Positions 47,581 to 59,658 of a DNA stretch of 64,000 nt are shown one piece after another (positions within the stretch are counted from its first letter, which is position 1; each line of letters begins with the position of its first letter). The stretch comes from an uncultured Tateyamaria sp. (GTDB taxonomy: Bacteria > Pseudomonadota > Alphaproteobacteria > Rhodobacterales > Rhodobacteraceae). The stretch spans positions 930,001 through 994,000 of the forward strand of contig NZ_CANNCF010000001.1 of NCBI RefSeq assembly GCF_947503045.1, read 5' to 3'. The notes beneath the pieces are model-generated. The model saw only the letters and a list, made by a program, of their open reading frames with translations. It was not told the origin of the DNA and ran no database searches. Made by a program: the position numbers and the translations under genes.

Positions 47581-48428
47581 TGTTTCCGCGTCCAGTAGAA
47601 AAATCCACCGCCACCGTCCGCTATTCCTATCAGGCCTTCCTGCCTGTGGCCCTGATCCTGTGGCTGCTGCCGCTGCTGGCCATTTTCCTGACCTCGATCA
47701 GGTCGGCGGCCGACATCAACTCGGGCAACGTCTTTGGCTGGCCGTCCGAATTTGCGCTGATCGAAAACTACTCTGCGGTTTTCACCCAGTCAGCGGCGGC
47801 ACAATACATGTGGAACTCGGTGCTGATCACCGTGCCCACCGTGATGATCTCGGTCGCCCTTGCCTGCCTCGCAGGCTACGCGCTGGCGATCTACAAGTTC
47901 CGGGTCGCTTTGCCGCTGTTTTTCCTGTTCGTGGCGGGCAACTTCATTCCGTTCCAGATCCTCATGGTGCCGGTGCGCGACATGTCGGTCCAAACCGGGC
48001 TTTATGACACCATCGCGGGTCAGTTCCTGTTCCACGCGGCCTTCCAGACCGGGTTCTGCACGCTGTTTATGCGGAACTTTATCAAGGCCTTGCCCTTTGA
48101 TCTGATCGAATCCGCGCGGATCGAAGGCATCGCGGAGTGGAAGATCTTCTGGTACGTGATCCTGCCCCTCGTGCGCCCTGCGATTGCAGCGCTCGCGGTG
48201 CTGATCTTTACCTTTGTGTGGAACGACTTTTTCTGGGCCAACGTGCTGACCCAGGGCGAGTCCGCAAAACCGATCACGGCCGGTGTGCGTGCGCTCAACG
48301 GTCAGTTCGTGAACAACTGGCATCTGGTGTCTGCAGCCTCGCTGCTGGCAGCGATCCCACCTGTGGCGTGCTTCTTCCTGATGCAGCGCCACTTTATTTC
48401 CGGCCTGACGATGGGAGCCGTGAAGTGA
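47581..48428 (+). CDS. Carbohydrate ABC transporter permease
   Basis: MFPRPVEKSTATVRYSYQAFLPVALILWLLPLLAIFLTSIRS; EAA loop ESARIEGIAEWKIFWYVILPLVRPA. Confidence 0.94.
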
Positions 48429-50509
48429 GCGCATGCTGGCGTCTGGATGACGGACGCCAGACTTTGGTTCTCGGCTCTGACCGGGGTCGGCTGGCTGAGG
48501 TCGTCTATTGGGGACCCAGCCTGCCGGAGACCGAAGATCTGGCCACGCTATACGAAGCCTATACCCTCGATGTGACCGGCGGCATGCTGGATCTGAACCC
48601 GGAGCTGAGCATCTGCCCGGAATCCACGCGGTCCTTTCCCGGCCAACCGGGGCTGATCATCCGCAACGGGGACGGCACGCCGTTCCTGCCCAAGTTCTGT
48701 CTGGAGCGCGCCGATCTGGGCGAGAACGTGTTGATCCTGACCTATATGGATCAGACCCGCGTGCTGACCTATCGCGCCCGTTTTGCCATTGATCCCACCA
48801 CCCACATCATCGAGGCCAGCGCCGAGGTCGAGGCAGACCAGCCCATGCACCTGCACTGGTTAAGCGCGCCGGTGTTTCCAGCGCCGCAACTGAGCGACGA
48901 GATGATCGATTTCGCCGGGCGCTGGTGTGGCGAATTCCAGATGAACCGCACGCCGTGGTCACCGGGCATCCGCTACCGCGAGAACCGCACGGGGCGCACG
49001 GGGCACGAACATTTCCCCGGCCTGATCGTGCCGGTGCGCGGGGCCTCGAACGCGACCGGGCAGGCCTATGCCTTTCACTATGGTTGGTCCGGCGGGCACC
49101 GGATGGTCGCCGAAGAGCTGCCCGATGGCCGCCGCCAGATCCAGTTCGGCCATGCCGCAAGGATGGAAGGGCAGGCGCAAAAGCACTTTTCGACCGGCAA
49201 GCTTTATGCCGTGTTTTCCGACGATGGTCTGAATGGCTGCGCAGTCGCGTTCCAGCGCCACCTGCGCGACCGGGTGGTGACATTTCCCCGCCCCGAGGCG
49301 TCGCGCCCGGTGCATTACAACTGCTGGGAAGCGGTCTATTTCAACCACAATCTCGACGAGCTCAAGGACATCGCTGACCGCGCCGCCGCCCTCGGGGCCG
49401 AGCGGTTCGTGCTGGATGATGGCTGGTTCGGCAATCGCGATGACGACACGCAGGCCCTGTCCGATTGGGAGGTCGATCCGCGCAAGTATCCCGACGGTCT
49501 CACGCCGTTGATCGACCACGTCAAAGGCTGCGGTATGACCTTTGGCATCTGGTTCGAGCCCGAGATGATCAACCCGAATTCGGACATCTTCCGTGCCCAT
49601 CCCGACTGGGCGCTGGGGAGCGAGGATCAGATCATGGGCCGCCAGCAGATGGCGCTCAATATGGCGCTGCCTGCTGTGCAGTCCTTTCTCTTTGCGCGGA
49701 TCGGCGACATCCTGTCCCGCCACGACATCGAATATATCAAATGGGACCACAACCGCGTGCTGCCCATGCCTGATGCGGCCCAGACGCGGGGGTCTTATGC
49801 GCTGCTGGATCGGTTGCGCCGCGAGTTTCCGCATGTGGAGATTGAAAGCTGCGCGTCCGGGGGCGGCCGCATCGACTTTGGTATCATGGAGCGCACCCAG
49901 CGGGTCTGGCTGTCAGACTCAAATGACGCGGTCGAAAGGCTGCGCATCCAGCACAACGCGTCGATCTTTTTGCCCATGGCCGTCACTGGCAGCCATGTGG
50001 GCCCGCGCACCTGTCACACTTCGGGGCGCACGCTCGACATCCGGTTCCGCGCCTGGGTCGCCGCCCAACGCCATATGGGGTTCGAGATGGACCCGCGTGA
50101 GTTGACCGAGGAAGAGGCCAAGGTTCTGCGCGAGGTCACCAACTGGTGGAAGGCCAACCGCGACTGGATGTATGGCGCCGATATCCTGCGTCTGGACAGT
50201 GCCGACCCGGCGGTGATCGCGGAACAGCATCTGGAAGAGGGCGGTGGGCAATTTGTCGTCTTTGCCGGCAAGGCCGCCACCTCGGACCAGATCGCGCCGC
50301 GCCCCCTGCGCCTGACCCGGCTGACGCCGGACGCAAAGTACCGGATCGAGCTGATCAATCGCGACGATGTCGGCGTGTTGTCGCGCGGTGCAAATGCGCT
50401 GAAATCCGGCCCGCTGGTGGTGAGCGGGGCCTACCTGATGTATCATGGGCTTACTCTGCCGTGGAGTTTCCCCGAACGGATGTGGGTGATCAAAGGCGAT
50501 CTGGCCTGA
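48425..50509 (+). CDS. Alpha-galactosidase, GH36 (GTG start)
   Basis: FVLDDGWFGNRDDDTQALSDWEVDPRKYPDGLTPLIDHVKGCGMTFGIWFEPEMINPNSD; YIKWDHNR catalytic Asp; ESCASGGGRIDFGIMERTQRVWLSDSND. Confidence 0.96.
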   Translation: MSACWRLDDGRQTLVLGSDRGRLAEVVYWGPSLPETEDLATLYEAYTLDVTGGMLDLNPELSICPESTRSFPGQPGLIIRNGDGTPFLPKFCLERADLGENVLILTYMDQTRVLTYRARFAIDPTTHIIEASAEVEADQPMHLHWLSAPVFPAPQLSDEMIDFAGRWCGEFQMNRTPWSPGIRYRENRTGRTGHEHFPGLIVPVRGASNATGQAYAFHYGWSGGHRMVAEELPDGRRQIQFGHAARMEGQAQKHFSTGKLYAVFSDDGLNGCAVAFQRHLRDRVVTFPRPEASRPVHYNCWEAVYFNHNLDELKDIADRAAALGAERFVLDDGWFGNRDDDTQALSDWEVDPRKYPDGLTPLIDHVKGCGMTFGIWFEPEMINPNSDIFRAHPDWALGSEDQIMGRQQMALNMALPAVQSFLFARIGDILSRHDIEYIKWDHNRVLPMPDAAQTRGSYALLDRLRREFPHVEIESCASGGGRIDFGIMERTQRVWLSDSNDAVERLRIQHNASIFLPMAVTGSHVGPRTCHTSGRTLDIRFRAWVAAQRHMGFEMDPRELTEEEAKVLREVTNWWKANRDWMYGADILRLDSADPAVIAEQHLEEGGGQFVVFAGKAATSDQIAPRPLRLTRLTPDAKYRIELINRDDVGVLSRGANALKSGPLVVSGAYLMYHGLTLPWSFPERMWVIKGDLA

Positions 50510-50531
50510 CCCGCACGAAAGAGAGTTTGAG

Positions 50532-51302
50532 ATGAAAGAGACAGTGACATTCCACGACCTGAACGGCGCTTCGGTGTTCATCACCGGCGGCGGTTCTGGC
50601 ATCGGCGCGTCCCTCACCGAAGGGTTTCTGGAACAGGGCGCCAAGGTGGCCTTTGTCCAGCGCTCGGACGCGACCGCATTCTGTGACGAGATGGAGGCCA
50701 AGTACGGCACCCGCCCGCTGTTCATGCCCTGCGACATCACCGACGATGCCGCGCTCAAGGCCTGTATCGAACAGGCCAGTGCGGCCCATGGCGCCGTCAC
50801 GACGCTGGTCAACAACGCCGCCAACGACAAGCGCCACAGCACGGCAGAGGTCGACAGTGACTTTTTCGACTGGATGATCGCGATCAACCTCAAGGCCTAT
50901 TTCTTTGCCTGTCAGGCGGTCATGCCCCGCATGCAGGCGGCTGGCGGCGGGTCGATCATCAACTTTTCCTCGATCAGCTACATGATGGGGAATGCGGGCT
51001 ATCCGCTTTACACCAGCGCCAATTCGGCGATCAACGGCATGACCCGCAGCCTCGCGCGCGAGTTCGGCCCCGACAAGATCCGCGTGAACGCGCTGGCGCC
51101 CGGTTGGGTGCTGACGCAAAAGCAGCTGGATCAGTGGGCGACGCCCGACGGATTGGCCGCACATATGGACCGCCAGTGCCTCAAGGAACATCTTGAACCG
51201 CGCGACATCGTGGGGGCTGTGCTGTTCATGGCCTCGGATGCGAGCCGGATGATGACAGGGCAGGCGGTTGTCGTGGACGGTGGCGTGGCGGTGACGGGCT
51301 GA
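50532..51302 (+). CDS. SDR family oxidoreductase (candidate galactose dehydrogenase)
   Basis: FITGGGSGIGASLTEGFLEQGAKVAF; YTSANSAINGMTRSLAREFGPDKIRVNALAPGW; position in galactoside operon. Confidence 0.85.
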   Translation: MKETVTFHDLNGASVFITGGGSGIGASLTEGFLEQGAKVAFVQRSDATAFCDEMEAKYGTRPLFMPCDITDDAALKACIEQASAAHGAVTTLVNNAANDKRHSTAEVDSDFFDWMIAINLKAYFFACQAVMPRMQAAGGGSIINFSSISYMMGNAGYPLYTSANSAINGMTRSLAREFGPDKIRVNALAPGWVLTQKQLDQWATPDGLAAHMDRQCLKEHLEPRDIVGAVLFMASDASRMMTGQAVVVDGGVAVTG

Positions 51303-52185
51303 TGGCAAAAGGGACGTGGATCGCAGTGGATTGGGGCACGTCGCAATTGCGCGCGTGGCTGATGCGCGGCGATGGCCACATCCTTGAACGACGCCAGTCC
51401 GATGCGGGCATGGGCACACTGGCGCGCGACGGGTTTGAACCGGCCTTGCGCGCCCTTGTGGGTGACGCGCTGCCCGCCCCGGTACTGGCCTGCGGCATGG
51501 TCGGCTCGCGTCAGGGCTGGATTGAGGCACCTTATCTACAACCCCCTGCGCGCCCCCCGGCGCGGCCGAGGCTGTCGCAGTGCCCGGTATGGATGTGCGC
51601 ATCCTGCCCGGTGTCAAACAGGACCACCCCGCAGATGTGATGCGCGGCGAGGAAACCCAGATCGCAGGATATCTGGCCACCCATCCGGGCTTTGACGGCG
51701 TGATCTGCCTGCCCGGCACTCATACCAAGTGGGTCCATGTGAGTGCGGGTGAAATCGTGAGCTTCCGCACCGCGATGACAGGCGAGATGTTTGCCCTTCT
51801 GTCCACCCAATCGGTGCTGCGCCACTCGATGGGCGCGGGCTGGGACGCGGACAGTTTTGCCGCCGGGATCGATCAGGCGATCTCCAAACCTGAAGGGCTG
51901 GCCGCCGCCCTGTTTTCGCTGCGCGCCGAAGGGTTGCTGGCCGGGCTCAACCCCGATGCCGCCCGCGCGCGCCTGTCGGGTCTGTTGATCGGTGCCGAAC
52001 TGGCCGCCATGCGCCCCTATTGGCTGGGCCAACAGGTTGCGCTGATCGGCGCCGAAAGCCTCAGCCGCGCCTATGCAGAGGCCCTTGCCCTGCAATCCGT
52101 TCCCTGCCACAGCGCAGGCGTCGAAGACATGACCCTCGCAGGCCTCACCGCCGCATGGTCCCAAATCTATGGAGAAGCCGCATGA
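51302..52185 (+). pseudogene. dgoK: 2-dehydro-3-deoxygalactonokinase (DgoK), split by an apparent frameshift near 51553-51558
   Basis: Frame 1: MAKGTWIAVDWGTSQLRAWLMRGDG...GMVGSRQGWIEAPYL; second frame: VPGMDVRILPGVKQDHPADVMRGEETQIAGYL...LPGTHTKWVHV. One extra base in the C6 run would restore one ORF. Confidence 0.85.
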
Positions 52186-52784
52186 GCCGGGAAATCATCG
52201 CCATTCTGCGCGGCATCGCGCCAGACGAGGCCGAAGCCGTCGCGGATGCATTGGTCGACGCAGGTATCACCCGGATCGAAGTGCCGCTGAACTCTCCGCA
52301 ACCCTTTGACAGCATTTCGAAAATGCTGCTGGCCCATGGTTCCCATGCGATGATCGGGGCAGGGACCGTGCTCGACGTGCGCGACGTGGAAAAGCTGCAC
52401 AAGATGGGCGCGCATATGGTGGTGTCTCCGGATGCGAACGCGACCATTATCGTGGCGACCAAACAGGCGGGCATGATGTCCTTTCCCGGTGTGATGACGC
52501 CCACCGAATGCTTTGCAGCACTTCAGGCGGGGGCCGACGGGCTGAAACTGTTTCCGGCCTCGCTGCTCGGGGTCGAGGGGCTCAAGGCCATCGGTGCGGT
52601 GCTGCCCAAAGGGACCAAGGCCTATGCCGTGGGCGGCGTGGGTCCGGCGAATTTCGCCGACTGGTTTGCCGCCGGGATCACCGGGTTCGGCATCGGCTCC
52701 GCGCTTTACAAACCGGGCATGTCCGTGGCGGATGTCGCGGCGCGGGCGGCGGATATGGTTGCGGCCTACGACGCAGGCGCGTGA
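52182..52784 (+). CDS. dgoA: 2-dehydro-3-deoxy-6-phosphogalactonate aldolase
   Basis: IIAILRGIAPDEAEAVADALVDAGITRIEVPLNSPQPFDSI; KLFPASLLGVEGLKAI. Confidence 0.93.
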   Translation: MSREIIAILRGIAPDEAEAVADALVDAGITRIEVPLNSPQPFDSISKMLLAHGSHAMIGAGTVLDVRDVEKLHKMGAHMVVSPDANATIIVATKQAGMMSFPGVMTPTECFAALQAGADGLKLFPASLLGVEGLKAIGAVLPKGTKAYAVGGVGPANFADWFAAGITGFGIGSALYKPGMSVADVAARAADMVAAYDAGA

Positions 52785-53617
52785 TGGAGGTCTTTGACGA
52801 CCGTGCCTGCGCCCTCGGCGAGGGGCCGCTCTGGCATCCGATCCGGAACGAACTGTTCTGGTTCGATATTCTGAACAAGACCCTGCATGCCAAGGGCGAA
52901 AACCGCCAAAGCTGGACCTTTGATGACCATGTCTCGGCTGCGGGCTGGGTGGATGAAAACACCCTGCTGATGGCCTCGGCCACGGGCCTGTGGCGCTTTG
53001 ACATCCCGACCGGCGCGCGCGAACTGGTGACACCGCTTGAGGCCGACAACCCGGTCACCCGCTCAAATGACGGGCGCGCCGACCTGCAGGGCGGTTTCTG
53101 GATCGGAACGATGGGGATCAAGGCCGAGGCCTATGCCGGGTCCATCTATCGCTATTACCGGGGCGAGCTGCGCCAGCTCTTTGATCGTATCACCATCTCC
53201 AACGCGATCTGTTTTGCACCGGACGGGCAGGTGGCCTATTTCTGCGATACTTTTTCCAAGCAAATCCAGAAGGTTGCGCTGGATACTGACGGATGGCCAT
53301 CGGCCGAACCGCAGGTTTTTCTGGACCTGCGCGAGGATGGGTTGAACCCTGATGGCGCGGTTGTGGACAGTCTTGGCAACCTCTGGAACGCGCAATGGGG
53401 CGCCAGCCGCATGGCCTGCTACGCGCCCGACGGCACATATCTGCGCCACGTTGAGACCCCCGCCGCGCAAACCACATGCCCGGCCTTTGGTGGCCCCGAG
53501 GGCACAACCCTGTTTGCCACCTCCGCCGCTGATGGCACGGACGAAGCGCAAGGCGGCATGACCTTTGCCGTTGATGCAGGCGTCAAAGGCCAACGCGAAC
53601 ATCAGGTGATCCTATGA
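52784..53617 (+). CDS. SMP-30/gluconolactonase family protein (candidate galactonolactonase)
   Basis: CALGEGPLWHPIRNELFWFDI; NDGRADLQGGFWIGTMG; LNPDGAVVDSLGNLWNAQWGASRM. Confidence 0.92.
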   Translation: MEVFDDRACALGEGPLWHPIRNELFWFDILNKTLHAKGENRQSWTFDDHVSAAGWVDENTLLMASATGLWRFDIPTGARELVTPLEADNPVTRSNDGRADLQGGFWIGTMGIKAEAYAGSIYRYYRGELRQLFDRITISNAICFAPDGQVAYFCDTFSKQIQKVALDTDGWPSAEPQVFLDLREDGLNPDGAVVDSLGNLWNAQWGASRMACYAPDGTYLRHVETPAAQTTCPAFGGPEGTTLFATSAADGTDEAQGGMTFAVDAGVKGQREHQVIL

Positions 53618-55545
53618 AACGCACACTTGGCGTCTGTTACTACCCCGAACACTGGCCCGAGGCGCAATGGGCCGAGGATGCCGCCCGCATGGCTGCCCTT
53701 GGCCTCACATGGGTGCGCATCGGTGAATTCGCGTGGAAACGGATGGAGCCGGTCGAGGGAGAATATGACTTTGACTGGTTGGACCGGGCGATCGAGACTT
53801 TGGGCGCGGCAGGCCTCACGGTTGTTCTGGGCACACCCACCGCCACGCCACCGGCCTGGGTTGTGGCCAAGCACCCTGACATGTTGCCCGTCGATGCAGA
53901 GGGGCGCGTGCGCGGCTATGGCTCGCGCCGCCACTACTGCTTTTCCCACGCCGGGTATCTGTCCGAATGCTGCCGGATCGTCACCCGCATGGCCGAGCGC
54001 TACGGCGCAAACCCGGATGTGGGCGCGTGGCAGACCGACAATGAATATAGCTGCCACGACACCACTCTCAGCTATTCAGACTGCGCCACCCGTGCCTTTC
54101 GCGACTGGCTGCGCACACAGTTTCCCGCGCCGGAATCCTATCGCGGCAATGACGGCGATATCGATGCGCTGAATGCGGCATGGGGCAACGTCTTCTGGTC
54201 GATGGACTATGATGATTTCGACCAGATCGGCCTGCCCAACCTCACCGTGACCGAAGTGAACCCGGCCCATGCTCACGCCTTCCGCCGGTTTTCTTCCGAT
54301 CAGGTGGTGGCCTTCAACCGCGCGCAGGTCGACATCATTCGCGCGCATTCCGAGGCGCCGATTGCCCACAACTACATGGGGCGGATCACGGATTTCGATC
54401 ACTTCAAGGTCGGCGCCGATCTCGATATCGCGTCCTGGGACAGCTACCCACTGGGCTTTCTCGAGGACCGCTCGGGCGGGTCGGATGCGCACAAGCGTGC
54501 CTACGCGCAGCAGGGCGACCCGGATTTTCAGGCCTTCCACCATGACCTCTACCGCGCTGTCGGCAAGGACGGGCGTTGGTGGGTGATGGAACAACAACCC
54601 GGCCCGGTGAACTGGGCGCCCTACAACCCCGCCCCCTTGCCGGGCATGGTGCGCCTCTGGACTTGGGAGGCCTTTGCCCATGGCGCCGAGGCGGTCTGTT
54701 ATTTCCGCTGGCGTCAGGCACCGTTCGCGCAGGAACAGATGCATGCGGGTCTTTTGCGCCCGGACTCAGCCGAGGCGGAGGCCTTTGGCGAGGCCGCGCT
54801 CGTGATGGCGGAGCTGGCCGACGCCCCGGACGTCGCCCCTGCGCAGGCCCCGGTCGCCATCATATTCGACTATGGTGCAGATGCGATGTGGGCGGTGCAG
54901 CCGCACGGGGCAGGCCTCAGCTATTTCGGGTTGGTCTTTGACTGGTATCGTGCGTGCCGCAAGTTAGGTCTGTCCGTGGATATTCTGCCTCCAACGGCGC
55001 GCGACTTTGACGGCTATGCACTGGTGCTGGTGCCCGGGATGATGCATATGCCCGACGATTTGAAGGGCGCCCTAGATGCGGCGGAAGGTCAGGTTGTGCT
55101 GGGCCCCCGCAGCGGCGCACGCGACACGCATTTCTCGATCCCCACGCCGCTGCCTCCGGCATGGCCCGGCAGTGACTTGACGGTCGCGCGGGTACAGTCC
55201 ATGCGGCCCGACATGCCGGTGCCGGTCGACGGCGGCGGGCAGGTGGTCGGTTATCTCGAACAGGTCGAGGGCGGCAGCGAGGTTTTGCTGCGCACAGAGG
55301 ACGGCGCACCCGTCGCGCTGCGCTGTTCGGACCATGTGAGCTATGTCGCGGGCTGGCTGGACGATGCCGCCCATATGCGCGTGCTGCGCAGCGTCGCGCC
55401 TGATCTGGAGGTACATGAGATGCCGGACTCTGTACGTCGCCGGGAAACCGGGGGTGAAGTGTTCTGGTTCAACTACGGTGCGCAAGATGCTGAAGTGGAA
55501 GGTAAAGTTCTGCCAGTTGCCGGAGTTCTGCGCCGCCCACGCTAG
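53614..55545 (+). CDS. Beta-galactosidase, GH42
   Basis: GVCYYPEHWPEAQWAEDAARMAALGLTWVRIGEFAWKRMEP; WQTDNEYSCHDT acid/base region; WVMEQQPGPVNWAPYNPAPLPGMVRLWTWEAFAHGAEAVCYFRWRQ. Confidence 0.96.
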   Translation: MKRTLGVCYYPEHWPEAQWAEDAARMAALGLTWVRIGEFAWKRMEPVEGEYDFDWLDRAIETLGAAGLTVVLGTPTATPPAWVVAKHPDMLPVDAEGRVRGYGSRRHYCFSHAGYLSECCRIVTRMAERYGANPDVGAWQTDNEYSCHDTTLSYSDCATRAFRDWLRTQFPAPESYRGNDGDIDALNAAWGNVFWSMDYDDFDQIGLPNLTVTEVNPAHAHAFRRFSSDQVVAFNRAQVDIIRAHSEAPIAHNYMGRITDFDHFKVGADLDIASWDSYPLGFLEDRSGGSDAHKRAYAQQGDPDFQAFHHDLYRAVGKDGRWWVMEQQPGPVNWAPYNPAPLPGMVRLWTWEAFAHGAEAVCYFRWRQAPFAQEQMHAGLLRPDSAEAEAFGEAALVMAELADAPDVAPAQAPVAIIFDYGADAMWAVQPHGAGLSYFGLVFDWYRACRKLGLSVDILPPTARDFDGYALVLVPGMMHMPDDLKGALDAAEGQVVLGPRSGARDTHFSIPTPLPPAWPGSDLTVARVQSMRPDMPVPVDGGGQVVGYLEQVEGGSEVLLRTEDGAPVALRCSDHVSYVAGWLDDAAHMRVLRSVAPDLEVHEMPDSVRRRETGGEVFWFNYGAQDAEVEGKVLPVAGVLRRPR

Positions 55546-55556
55546 CTTTTTGCGCG

Positions 55557-55587
55557 CTGTCATGGAATTGTCATGCAGGACTGTCAT
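55557..55587 (+). promoter_or_regulatory. Pho-box-like repeats upstream of gap-arsJ
   Basis: CTGTCAT-GGAA-TTGTCAT (7-4-7) plus a third CTGTCAT at 55581-55587; start codon of GAPDH at 55621. Confidence 0.65.
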
Positions 55588-55620
55588 AGCCCGCAGAGTG
55601 CTTCACACGAAAGACGCCCC

Positions 55621-56613
55621 ATGACCACATATGCCCTGAACGGCCTTGGCCGCATCGGAAAGCTGGCGCTGCGCCCTCTGCTTGAGGGCGGCTGCGACAT
55701 CGCCTTTGTCAACGATGCGGTGGGTGATCCGGCGATGCACGCCCACCTGCTCGAATTCGACACCGTGCATGGGCGCTGGCCTGCAGAGTTCGCCGCCGAT
55801 GCCGACAGTATCACCATCGACGGCACCCGCATCCCCGCCCATGGCATGCGCCGGATCGAGGAATTGCCGCTGGATAGCGTTGATGTCGTCATCGACTGCA
55901 CTGGCGTGTTCAAGACCGAAGCCGCGCTCGCGCCCTACTTTGCCGCCGGGGTGAAAAAGGTTGTCGTCTCCGCCCCGGTCAAGGACGGTGACACAGCCAA
56001 TATCGTGTTCGGGGTCAACAATGCGGCCTATACCGGGCAGCCGATTGTCACGGCAGCATCATGTACAACCAATTGCTTAGCACCCGTTGTTAAAGTGATT
56101 CACGAAGGGTTGGGGATCAAGCACGTTTCGATCACGACGATCCATGACGTGACCAACACGCAGACCATTGTGGACCGTCCGGCCAAGGATTGGCGGCGCG
56201 CGCGGTCGGCGCTCAACTCGATGATCCCGACCACCACGGGCTCGGCCACGGCCATCACGCTGATCTATCCAGAACTGACCGGCAAGCTGAACGGCCACGC
56301 GGTGCGCATCCCGCTGCTCAACGCTTCGCTCACCGACTGCGTGTTCGAGGTGGAGAGGGCCACAACCGTCGAAGAGGTCAACGCCCTGTTCGAGGCGGCG
56401 GCAGCGGGTCCGTTATATGGGATTCTCGGCTATGAAACCCGCCCGCTGGTGTCTTCGGACTACACCAACGATCCCCGTTCCAGTATTGTGGATGCGCTTT
56501 CCACTATGGTGGTGAACGGCACGCAGGTGAAGATTTACGCCTGGTATGACAACGAATGGGGTTACGCCCATCGGCTGGTCGATGTCGCGCAAATGGTGGG
56601 CGCATCCCTGTGA
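55621..56613 (+). CDS. ArsJ-associated glyceraldehyde-3-phosphate dehydrogenase
   Basis: [18 protein letters not shown], catalytic [40 protein letters not shown] overlap with arsJ. Confidence 0.9.
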
Positions 56614-57872
56614 GCAGGCCTGCGGGCTTTGCGGCCTATGTGGCGGTGACGGCGGCCTATTGGGCCTTCATGCTGACGGACGGGGCGTTGCGGATGCTGG
56701 TGCTGTTGCATTTCAACAGCCTTGGCTTTTCGCCCGTGCAACTGGCCTATCTTTTTGTCCTTTATGAGATCGCGGGCGTGATCACGAATCTGTCCGCCGG
56801 ATGGATCGCGGCGCGGTTCGGGCTGACCTCGACGCTTTATGTCGGTCTTGGCCTTCAGGTGGTGGCACTGATCGCGCTCGCACAGCTTGATCCGGGCTGG
56901 AGCGTTGCCGCCTCGGTCGTGTTCGTGATGTGCGTGCAGGGGATGTCGGGTGTGGCCAAGGATCTGGCCAAGATGTCCTCCAAATCCGCGGTCAAACTGC
57001 TCGCGCCCGAGGGCGATGGGTTGTTTCGCTGGGTCGCGCTGCTGACGGGATCCAAGAACGCGGTGAAGGGCTTGGGCTTTCTTCTTGGGGCAGGGGCGCT
57101 GGCATTGTTCGGTTTCGTTCCATCCGTTCTGGGTATGGCCGTGATGCTGGGCGTCATCCTGTTGGTTGTGGGCATGCGCATGCCGCCGGGCCTGCCGGTC
57201 GGTCGCAAGGGCGCAAAGTTCAGAGAGGTCATTTCGAAAAACGCGCGCATCAACTGGCTGAGCCTCGCCCGTGTCTTTCTGTTCGGGGCGCGGGATGTGT
57301 GGTTTGTGGTCGGAATCCCGATCTATTTCTATGCGGTGCTCAGCGACGGGACACCGGACGGCCAGCGCGCCGCCTTTTTTATGATCGGCACCTTCATGGC
57401 ACTTTGGGTGATCCTGTACGGGGCCGTTCAGGCGCGCGCGCCCGCCATCCTGCGCAGTGCGGGGCGGTCGGAGGCCGACCTTGCAGCCGCCGCCCGGTTC
57501 TGGGTCGCCACGCTGTTCTTCGTTCCTGCTACGCTTGCCATCGCCGCATTTCTGGCAGGTGCGCCGACCCTGTGGCTGACCGGGGCGGTGGTCATTGGAT
57601 TGCTCATCTTTGGCGTGTTGTTTGCGCTTAACTCGTCCCTGCATTCCTACCTCATCCTCGCCTTTACCAGCGCAGGCCGTGTGACGATGGATGTGGGGTT
57701 TTACTATATGGCCAACGCCGCGGGGCGTTTGATCGGCACGGTTCTTTCGGGCCTGACATATCAGATCGGTGGCCTGCCGCTGTGTCTGGGCACTGCCGCC
57801 CTCATGATTGCCCTCAGTTGGCTGTCGATCGGGCGGATCAGCCGCGAAAACGCGCCATCCAACCCAGCGTAG
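56610..57872 (+). CDS. arsJ: Organoarsenical efflux MFS transporter ArsJ (GTG start)
   Basis: [101 protein letters not shown]; coupled to GAPDH. Confidence 0.88.
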
Positions 57873-58587
57873 CGTCCGTATCGCCGCCCGGTTTATACTC
57901 CGCCCCCAATGGGGCGGGCCAGTCGGCGAGGGCGGCAAAGATATGGGCATAATCCAGCTCGCCATGATCCGGCGCGCCCCGGTCGGGGACAGATGCAAAC
58001 TGGATATGGCCGATGATGTCGCGCAAGGCACCAAGGCGCGTGGTCACGTCACCTTCGTTCCGGCCCACATGGTAACAGTCGAACATCAGCTTGAGATTGG
58101 GTGCGGCGACCTCGTCAATGATGGCGCGGGCCTGATCCGTGGTGGACAGGAAGTAGCCCGGCGCGTCATGGCGGTTCAGCGGTTCGATCAGGATCATCTT
58201 GTCCGTTGCCGCGCACGCAAAGCGCAAGTTGTCCACAAAGGTTACGTGCGCTGCATCCCTGTGGCCAAAGCCGCACATCACGTGGATCGCACCTGCATTC
58301 ACGACACTCGCATATGCAATGGATTCTTCGATTGCCGCGCGCGCCTCGTCTTCCCGCCCCGGCAGTGCGGCAAGGCCGTTTTCGCCCCCCGCCACATCGC
58401 CGCGCCGCGTGTTGAGGCCCAGCATCGGCAGGCCGGTGGTGTCCAAAGTGGCCCGAACGTCCTCGGCGGGCGTGTCATAGGGCCAATGGCACTCAACCGC
58501 GTCGAACCCGGCGGCCTTGGCGGCGCGGATGGCGTCGGGCAACGGTCGGTCCGCCCACAGGAACCCGAGATTTGCCGAGAACCTCAT
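57838..58587 (-). CDS. Hydroxypyruvate isomerase-like TIM barrel protein (OtnI-like)
   Basis: MRFSANLGFLWADRPLPDAIRAAKAAGFDAVECHWPYD; ILIEPLNRHDAPGYFL; LMFDCYHVGRNEGD. Confidence 0.82.
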   Translation of the reverse strand: MRFSANLGFLWADRPLPDAIRAAKAAGFDAVECHWPYDTPAEDVRATLDTTGLPMLGLNTRRGDVAGGENGLAALPGREDEARAAIEESIAYASVVNAGAIHVMCGFGHRDAAHVTFVDNLRFACAATDKMILIEPLNRHDAPGYFLSTTDQARAIIDEVAAPNLKLMFDCYHVGRNEGDVTTRLGALRDIIGHIQFASVPDRGAPDHGELDYAHIFAALADWPAPLGAEYKPGGDTDATLGWMARFRG

Positions 58588-59489
58588 GGCTTTTCCCCCG
58601 GCAGGGTCAGCCCGGCGTTGCGGGCATAGACCTTGGCCACCGCCGCGTCATCCTCGCCCCCCATCCCCATGCCCGCGGCGGCGATGAACTGTTGTAGAGC
58701 GGCTGCCGTGATCGGGGCGGAGAAGCTGGCGGATTTGGCCACGTCCAACACGATGCCCAGATCCTTGGGCCAGATATTGACGGAAGAGTGCGGCGTGTAG
58801 TCGCCCGCCACGATGTGGGGCGCGCGGTTTTCCAGCATCCAGCTGGTGCCCGCGCATTTGCTGATCACTTCGACGAATTGCGCGGGCTCCACCCCTTGGG
58901 TCATGCCGAAGGTCAGCGCCTCGGCCATGGTCGCGATATGCACGCCTGCGAGCAGCTGGTTGACCGCCTTCATGGCCGATCCGGGGCCTGCCTGATCGCC
59001 CAATTCGAACACGGTTGTGGCTGTCGCATCAAGCACGGGGCGGGCAGCGGCAAAGGCCTCCGGCGTGCCCGAGGCCATCACTGACAACGCGCCTTGCGCG
59101 GCCTTGAGCGACCCGCCCGAGATCGGCGCATCAAGGTAATGGACGCCGAAATCGGTGCACATTGCCTCCATCCGGCGGGCAAAGTCGGGCGGTACGGTGG
59201 CGCAGGCCATGACGACCGCGCCCTTGCGCATCAGCGGCGCGACGCCATTGGGCCCAAACAGCACGGTTTTGGTCTGCTCAGCGTTCAAAACGACCACGAT
59301 GACTGCATCAAGGGTCGCGGCCACGTCCGCGATCGCGCCGGGCGCACCACCTGCGGCGGCAAAGCGGGCCGTCTGTTCGGGAGAGACATCAAAGCCATAG
59401 GTTTCGTGCCCCGCCGCGAGGCAGGATTGCGCAATCCCGTAGCCCATGGAGCCAAGCCCGATGACAGCGGTGCGGTGTGAAGTGGTCAT
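58584..59489 (-). CDS. NAD(P)-dependent beta-hydroxyacid dehydrogenase, L-threonate dehydrogenase (LtnD)-like
   Basis: AVIGLGSMGYGIAQSCLAAGHETYGFDVSPEQ; LDAPISGGSLKAAQGALSVMASG; KAVNQLLAGVHIA; WMLENRAPHIVAGDYTPHSSVNIWPKDLGI. Confidence 0.82.
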   Translation of the reverse strand: MTTSHRTAVIGLGSMGYGIAQSCLAAGHETYGFDVSPEQTARFAAAGGAPGAIADVAATLDAVIVVVLNAEQTKTVLFGPNGVAPLMRKGAVVMACATVPPDFARRMEAMCTDFGVHYLDAPISGGSLKAAQGALSVMASGTPEAFAAARPVLDATATTVFELGDQAGPGSAMKAVNQLLAGVHIATMAEALTFGMTQGVEPAQFVEVISKCAGTSWMLENRAPHIVAGDYTPHSSVNIWPKDLGIVLDVAKSASFSAPITAAALQQFIAAAGMGMGGEDDAAVAKVYARNAGLTLPGEKP

Positions 59490-59658
59490 GGAGGTCTCCA
59501 AATTTTGTGGCGCGTTGGGGCAGTGTTCGGCAATCCGCGCGGCAAGCGCAAGGGGCAGGGGGCGGCGGCGCGGATCGGCGCGCTGTGCGGTCTTGCAATC
59601 CGGGCCCTGCGCGGGTCACGTTGTGCGGGCAGATCAGGCAGGCACGGCACAGGATTTC

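Follow-up and report, generated by a model that had tools for sequence, protein, structure and literature searches.

The window, a stretch of 64,000 nucleotides from an uncultured Tateyamaria sp., contains a gene for an ArsJ-associated glyceraldehyde-3-phosphate dehydrogenase (gap) followed by a gene for the efflux transporter ArsJ (Table 1). Both proteins scored above the curated cut-offs of their families, and the genes are adjacent in the same operon with a 4-bp overlap, GTGA, at positions 56610-56613, which identifies them as an ArsJ-GAPDH arsenate efflux pair; arsenate resistance is here predicted from the gene families. The stop codon of the upstream GH42 gene (55545) and the ATG codon of gap are separated by 75 bp, and no arsR-like ORF is located beside the pair. 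The identity and overlap of the two genes, the 75-bp gap and the lack of a neighbouring arsR-like ORF had all been proposed in an earlier, sequence-only reading of this DNA, and were confirmed.

The GH42 gene ends an apparent galactoside/galactose catabolic run on the forward strand (48137-55545), upstream of gap-arsJ, which comprises ORFs for alpha-galactosidase-like, SDR, DgoK-like and KDPG-aldolase-like proteins (named by eye) as well as an SGL lactonase gene and the GH42 gene itself. The position of gap-arsJ at the 3' end of this run is common to most of the genus. The 3' end of arsJ overlaps by 35 bp (57838-57872) the 3' end of a convergent hydroxypyruvate/2-oxo-tetronate isomerase-like gene, which is followed by a gene for L-threonate dehydrogenase (58584-59501).

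Table 1. Features of the gap-arsJ locus in the window.
Feature	Position	Strand	Description
GH42 beta-galactosidase gene	53614-55545	+	Pfam PF02449; upstream context, outside the resistance pair
Intergenic spacer GH42/gap	55546-55620	+	75 bp; occupied in congeners by the arsR-arsC fusion gene (~830 bp), which is absent here
Predicted Pho box	55557-55574	+	7-mers CTGTCAT and TTGTCAT, GGAA spacer, 11-bp period; sole exact match in the genome; top matrix score in the window; conserved in congeners without arsRC
Predicted -10-like hexamer CATAGC	55585-55590	+	10 bp past the box; overlaps the third CTGTCAT (55581-55587); TG(A/T)CATAG common to four congeners; putative
gap	55621-56613	+	ArsJ-associated glyceraldehyde-3-phosphate dehydrogenase, 330 aa, ATG start; NF033735, 529.2 bits (cut-off 450)
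arsJ	56610-57872	+	MFS efflux transporter ArsJ, 420 aa, GTG start; NF033734, 523.1 bits (cut-off 400)

The spacer contains the direct repeat of two 7-mers with a 4-bp spacer that the sequence-only reading had pointed to. In a pattern search of the genome (4.74 Mb), this element, CTGTCATGGAATTGTCAT, was the sole place that matched CTGTCATNNNNYTGTCAT exactly, and it differs from CTGTCATNNNNCTGTCAT by a single C-to-T change. With up to two mismatches, the pattern was found at 47 places in the genome, as compared to 7 places for a reversed control pattern. In the window, the element was the only place with no mismatch, and with up to three mismatches 6 places were observed and 6.4 expected by chance, so that the exact match alone is informative. 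The other matches in this genome (L001-L016), pst excepted, were mostly located inside ORFs or before unrecognised genes, and at one or two mismatches the pattern is therefore a poor predictor.

To avoid reliance on a consensus alone, we built a Pho matrix from 19 pstS promoters (from relatives and from this genome), with training sites chosen by likeness to the classical consensus and with no gap-arsJ sequence among them, and scanned the window and the collected loci. Scored with this alphaproteobacterial PhoB-type matrix, as had been suggested, the element obtained 16.85, the highest score among the window's roughly 128,000 positions (runner-up, 13.8). Compared with the pst sites, this score is toward the lower end (GG in the spacer). 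The organism's own pstS promoter reads CTGTCATAAAACTGTTACGCAACTGTCAC, the same element with three repeats at 11-bp steps, and the same direct repeat was found in pstS promoters across the class. The two 7-mers before gap and a downstream CATAG have been kept in four congeners, while the remainder of the spacer has diverged. We consider it very likely that the element functions as a Pho box.

A third CTGTCAT is present in the spacer, as the sequence-only reading had noted, at 13 bp rather than 11 bp from the second copy and thus out of register. This position reads TGACATAG in four relatives, the congeners with closely similar promoters, in which the copy is CTGACATAG or GTGACATAG. The spacing and the sequence in the relatives make a role as a PhoB half-site unlikely, and the third copy did not hold up as a Pho repeat. 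The conserved core, CATAG, begins 10 bp after the box, and in PhoB-activated promoters such as that of E. coli phoA the -10 element is located at this distance after the box. No sigma-70 -35/-10 pair was found upstream of gap. The third CTGTCAT probably belongs to a -10 element.

We compared the upstream regions of 200 distinct gap-arsJ loci, nearly all from Rhodobacteraceae. An ArsR-ArsC fusion gene (arsRC) is located directly upstream in 167 of these loci and is missing in 33. Its product, of about 275 aa, contains an ArsR-like HTH domain with a Cys-Cys motif and an arsenate-reductase (LMWPc) domain with CTGNSARS, and the gene usually overlaps gap. Most relatives thus have the arsR gene that characterises an ArsR-regulated ars operon, whereas none is located near the pair in the window. 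Within the 200 bp preceding gap, matrix scores of at least 8 were obtained for 22 of the 33 arsRC-less loci and for none of the 167 arsRC-bearing loci (Fisher's p ~2e-21, kinship ignored), and scores of at least 16 for 16 and none, respectively. The background frequencies at these two thresholds were 2.9% and 0.15% in dinucleotide shuffles, and 2.4% and 0.4% upstream of 464 other long ORFs in the same loci.

In the 167 arsRC-bearing loci, the stretch before gap is taken up by arsRC coding sequence, and the promoter of the whole operon therefore offers the fairer comparison. Here, scores of at least 8 were found in 22/33 versus 61/167 loci (Fisher's p 0.002) and scores of at least 16 in 16/33 versus 21/167 loci (Fisher's p 1e-5), kinship being ignored in both. 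A matrix-free search for half-site pairs in the arsRC-less loci peaked at a period of 11 (18/33 loci), followed by 8 loci at a period of 13. When kinship was taken into account by independent pairs on a GAPDH tree of the whole family, 7 supported pairs gave no clear association between box and arsRC loss, partly because many arsRC-bearing operons are boxed too, and we do not count this test as support. No box was found in 11 of the 33 arsRC-less loci; in four of these 11, the only such cases among the 33, an arsR gene is located one gene farther upstream. The comparison across Rhodobacteraceae that had been proposed thus shows that the repeats are conserved in orthologous loci, specifically in the arsR-less ones, as a box with an 11-bp period and the sequence of the clade's pstS promoters.

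A few loci in the sample deviated in gene content. In two congeners (L134 and L141), an extra ORF of about 250 and 170 aa, respectively, separates gap from arsJ, as does varH in Vibrio; the two ORFs are not alike. The arsJ gene of one congener (L126/L128, G006:C33:43737-44977) is split over two frames and may be broken or misassembled, and a second ArsJ copy with 67% identity was identified with no gap gene nearby (L146, G018:C4:31181-32404).

The share of boxed arsRC operons (61/167) is far above the background (2.4-3.9%). The box-like element of such an operon is typically located 52-54 bp before the start of arsRC, and a palindrome like TTCATATATTCATGAAATATGGAA is located at the start codon. 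This ArsR-type motif was found in 143 of 166 arsRC operons; it includes the start codon and the second codon, and its conservation is hence partly coding. The palindrome is the predicted binding site of ArsR. Upstream of gap in the window, the palindrome motif scored -13.6, as compared to a median of 31 in the arsRC operons, and no palindrome with perfect 5-bp arms was found there; the motif is also absent from nearly all other arsRC-less promoters. The many boxes before arsRC suggest an older double control, with predicted activation by PhoB and repression by ArsR. In the arsRC operons, the second half of the box is often degraded (NNTTCAC), and control by PhoB is therefore less certain there than in the arsRC-less loci. 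The simplest reading is a PhoB-activated and ArsR-repressed operon from which arsRC has sometimes been lost. The proposal of a Pho box in place of ArsR thus applies to the derived loci; most of the family has kept ArsR, with many operons seemingly under both controls.

The genus of the window provides a natural experiment, in which close relatives with and without arsRC share both the genes and their location. The order SGL-GH42-[arsRC]-gap-arsJ, with the same GH42 neighbour, is kept in 14 genomes, eight with and six without arsRC. In the six arsRC-less loci, about 63-108 bp separate the end of GH42 from gap, and all six contain a box (scores 16.8-20.5). In a tree of GH42, gap and arsJ, the six loci are interspersed, with five changes, and a single loss of arsRC, with these loci as one clade, was rejected by an AU test (p-AU 1e-31). 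The flanking DNA, down to a distance of about 100 bp from the promoter, and the initial 200 bp of gap mostly track the species grouping rather than the allele. The arsRC tree is in line with this grouping as well. Parallel loss is therefore preferred, and an exchange of alleles that carried the flanks along was rejected on the same grounds. The promoters of two loci that are not sisters (L137 and L140) are nearly identical and may reflect the exchange of a very short tract. These results favour the loss of arsRC in place about five times in this genus.

Boxes were not limited to this family. Among 30 class-level gap-arsJ loci, strong boxes were found at several without detectable arsRC, as judged from stretches of about 400-500 bp before gap in which arsR genes farther away may be missed; the scores were 25.4 (L363), 19.7 (L350), 18.2 (L354), 16.8 (L335), 16.3 (L334) and 15.2 (L345). 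Boxed loci with no arsRC detected were thus present in other alphaproteobacterial families as well. The strongest boxes before gap, in L322 (25.8) and L363, belong to distant relatives with no detected arsR; the genome of L363 is 1.4 Mb in size and perhaps represents a streamlined marine lineage.

The host genome encodes pst-phoU-phoB. PhoB was identified with 344.7 bits (cut-off 296), its gene adjacent to phoU and about 5 kb from pstS, and the motif before gap is the same as that before the organism's own pst genes. Neither Acr3 nor an ArsR-ArsC fusion was found in the genome, and the sole LMWPc match is a stand-alone protein of 153 aa. As judged from these searches for Acr3 and LMWPc proteins, the gap-arsJ pair looks like the main arsenate route of the host. 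One of 11 ArsR-type HTH matches in this genome is a metalloregulator with an LTECC motif (L024, G000:C5), encoded beside an ArsP_1 permease and preceded by an ATTTCGA...TCGAAAT palindrome, forming a separate metal or organoarsenical efflux pair.

We considered whether gap-arsJ is still controlled by arsenic via an ArsR protein encoded elsewhere, such as this metalloregulator, with the repeats being secondary. The 11 HTH matches provide candidates, and ArsR proteins can have distant targets, as in Agrobacterium (PMC7965956). However, the palindrome of the metalloregulator has no counterpart and shares no 7-mer with the region upstream of gap, where the ArsR palindrome of the sister operons also scores negatively. 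With no matching operator before gap, control in trans by the metalloregulator was rejected, and we regard remote arsenic control in general as improbable. Slightly less probable still is that expression of gap-arsJ stems mostly from read-through of the galactose/galactoside operon before it, past functionless repeats: the genes are on the same strand with a 75-bp spacer, no terminator was found between GH42 and gap, and the GH42-gap-arsJ synteny is conserved in the genus, but the two 7-mers and CATAG have outlasted the divergence of the surrounding spacer, and some gap-arsJ loci that lack GH42 are boxed as well. OmpR-type regulators can bind similar direct repeats and about a dozen further full-length ones are encoded in the genome, but binding of the repeat by one of these instead of PhoB is very unlikely, as the same element is found in the organism's own pstS promoter and in pstS promoters class-wide.

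The same GAPDH and ArsJ families, pairing and gene order are found in the ArsR-regulated arsR-gap-arsJ operons of Pseudomonas aeruginosa and Vibrio cholerae (in the latter, the var operon; PMC9601151). Those operons keep arsR, whereas the locus in the window is devoid of both arsR and operator and has a predicted Pho box; the V. cholerae operon is arsenate-induced, and its ArsJ has been argued to export mainly free arsenate (PMC9601151). The window promoter resembles PhoB-activated promoters (the clade's pstS, E. coli phoA and pstS) in its two CTGTCAT-type 7-mers with an 11-bp period and in the putative -10-like hexamer predicted about 10 bp farther on, with no -35 hexamer found, but those promoters serve phosphorus acquisition whereas the genes in the window serve arsenate detoxification. 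In Halomonas HAL1, PhoB binds a Pho box at the arsenite oxidase genes aioBA (PMC4563254), so that there, too, the phosphate two-component system reaches an arsenic gene, with binding shown in that case and predicted here; that system differs in that the gene is for arsenite oxidation, the box lies close to the start codon on the other strand, and arsenite is still needed. In the arsR-sphX-gap-arsJ cluster of Nodularia spumigena, gap (log2 1.6-2.4) and arsJ (log2 0.3-1.2) increased in RNA-seq under P limitation (PMC9846622), but arsR is retained beside the genes, the P box is of the cyanobacterial type and no box was reported for gap or arsJ. Control of pst/pho by ArsR1 in Agrobacterium (PMC7965956) represents a similar cross-talk between arsenic and phosphate in the opposite direction, from ArsR to phosphate genes. 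Our literature search, with most subscription journals outside its reach, yielded no published Pho box at gap-arsJ, and only the Nodularia paper for arsJ together with PhoB or a Pho box.

We consider it highly likely, from the sequence comparisons, that gap-arsJ in the window is an arsenate-detoxification pair with a PhoB-activated promoter under feed-forward control by low phosphate. At low phosphate, PhoB phosphorylated by PhoR would occupy the two 7-mers, which substitute for a -35 element, and bring RNA polymerase to the predicted -10 hexamer CATAGC, so that gap and arsJ are transcribed together. GAPDH would join arsenate to glyceraldehyde-3-phosphate, and ArsJ would export the product, or free arsenate as argued for V. 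cholerae. The high-affinity uptake that is induced at low phosphate would bring arsenate in, with the exporter switched on alongside, and the local arsenic-sensing repressor, the ArsR-ArsC fusion, would have been deleted in place with its operator. Control of the pair very probably follows phosphate rather than arsenic, and may lack any arsenic input. The proposal of phosphate starvation rather than ArsR control is well supported by the comparison, through the 22/33 versus 0/167 loci, the 11-bp period, the pst-like box, pst-phoU-phoB in the genome and the disappearance of the ArsR palindrome.

The detoxification pathway itself is known, and its form with a predicted Pho box is a new regulatory variant. 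What goes beyond the sequence-only reading, and is the notable part, is the repeated loss in place of the arsenic sensor from what was likely a two-input ancestor. In its broadest form, we give somewhat better than even chances to a scenario in which arsRC-gap-arsJ of marine Rhodobacterales ancestrally had both inputs on one promoter, and the repeated loss of arsRC and operator in place, about five times in one genus, gave rise to an arsenate defence driven purely by phosphate-starvation feed-forward, which recurs in other alphaproteobacterial families.

ArsR is the textbook case of arsenic resistance induced by the toxin itself. If the reading proposed here is true, this is a resistance operon without a sensor, driven by phosphate hunger, an anticipatory control that is armed as the entry door of arsenate opens. 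Such control would fit surface seas, where the ratio of arsenate to phosphate can exceed 50 (PMC6426599). Transcripts of gap-arsJ in marine data would then be a signal of phosphate stress rather than evidence of exposure to arsenic.
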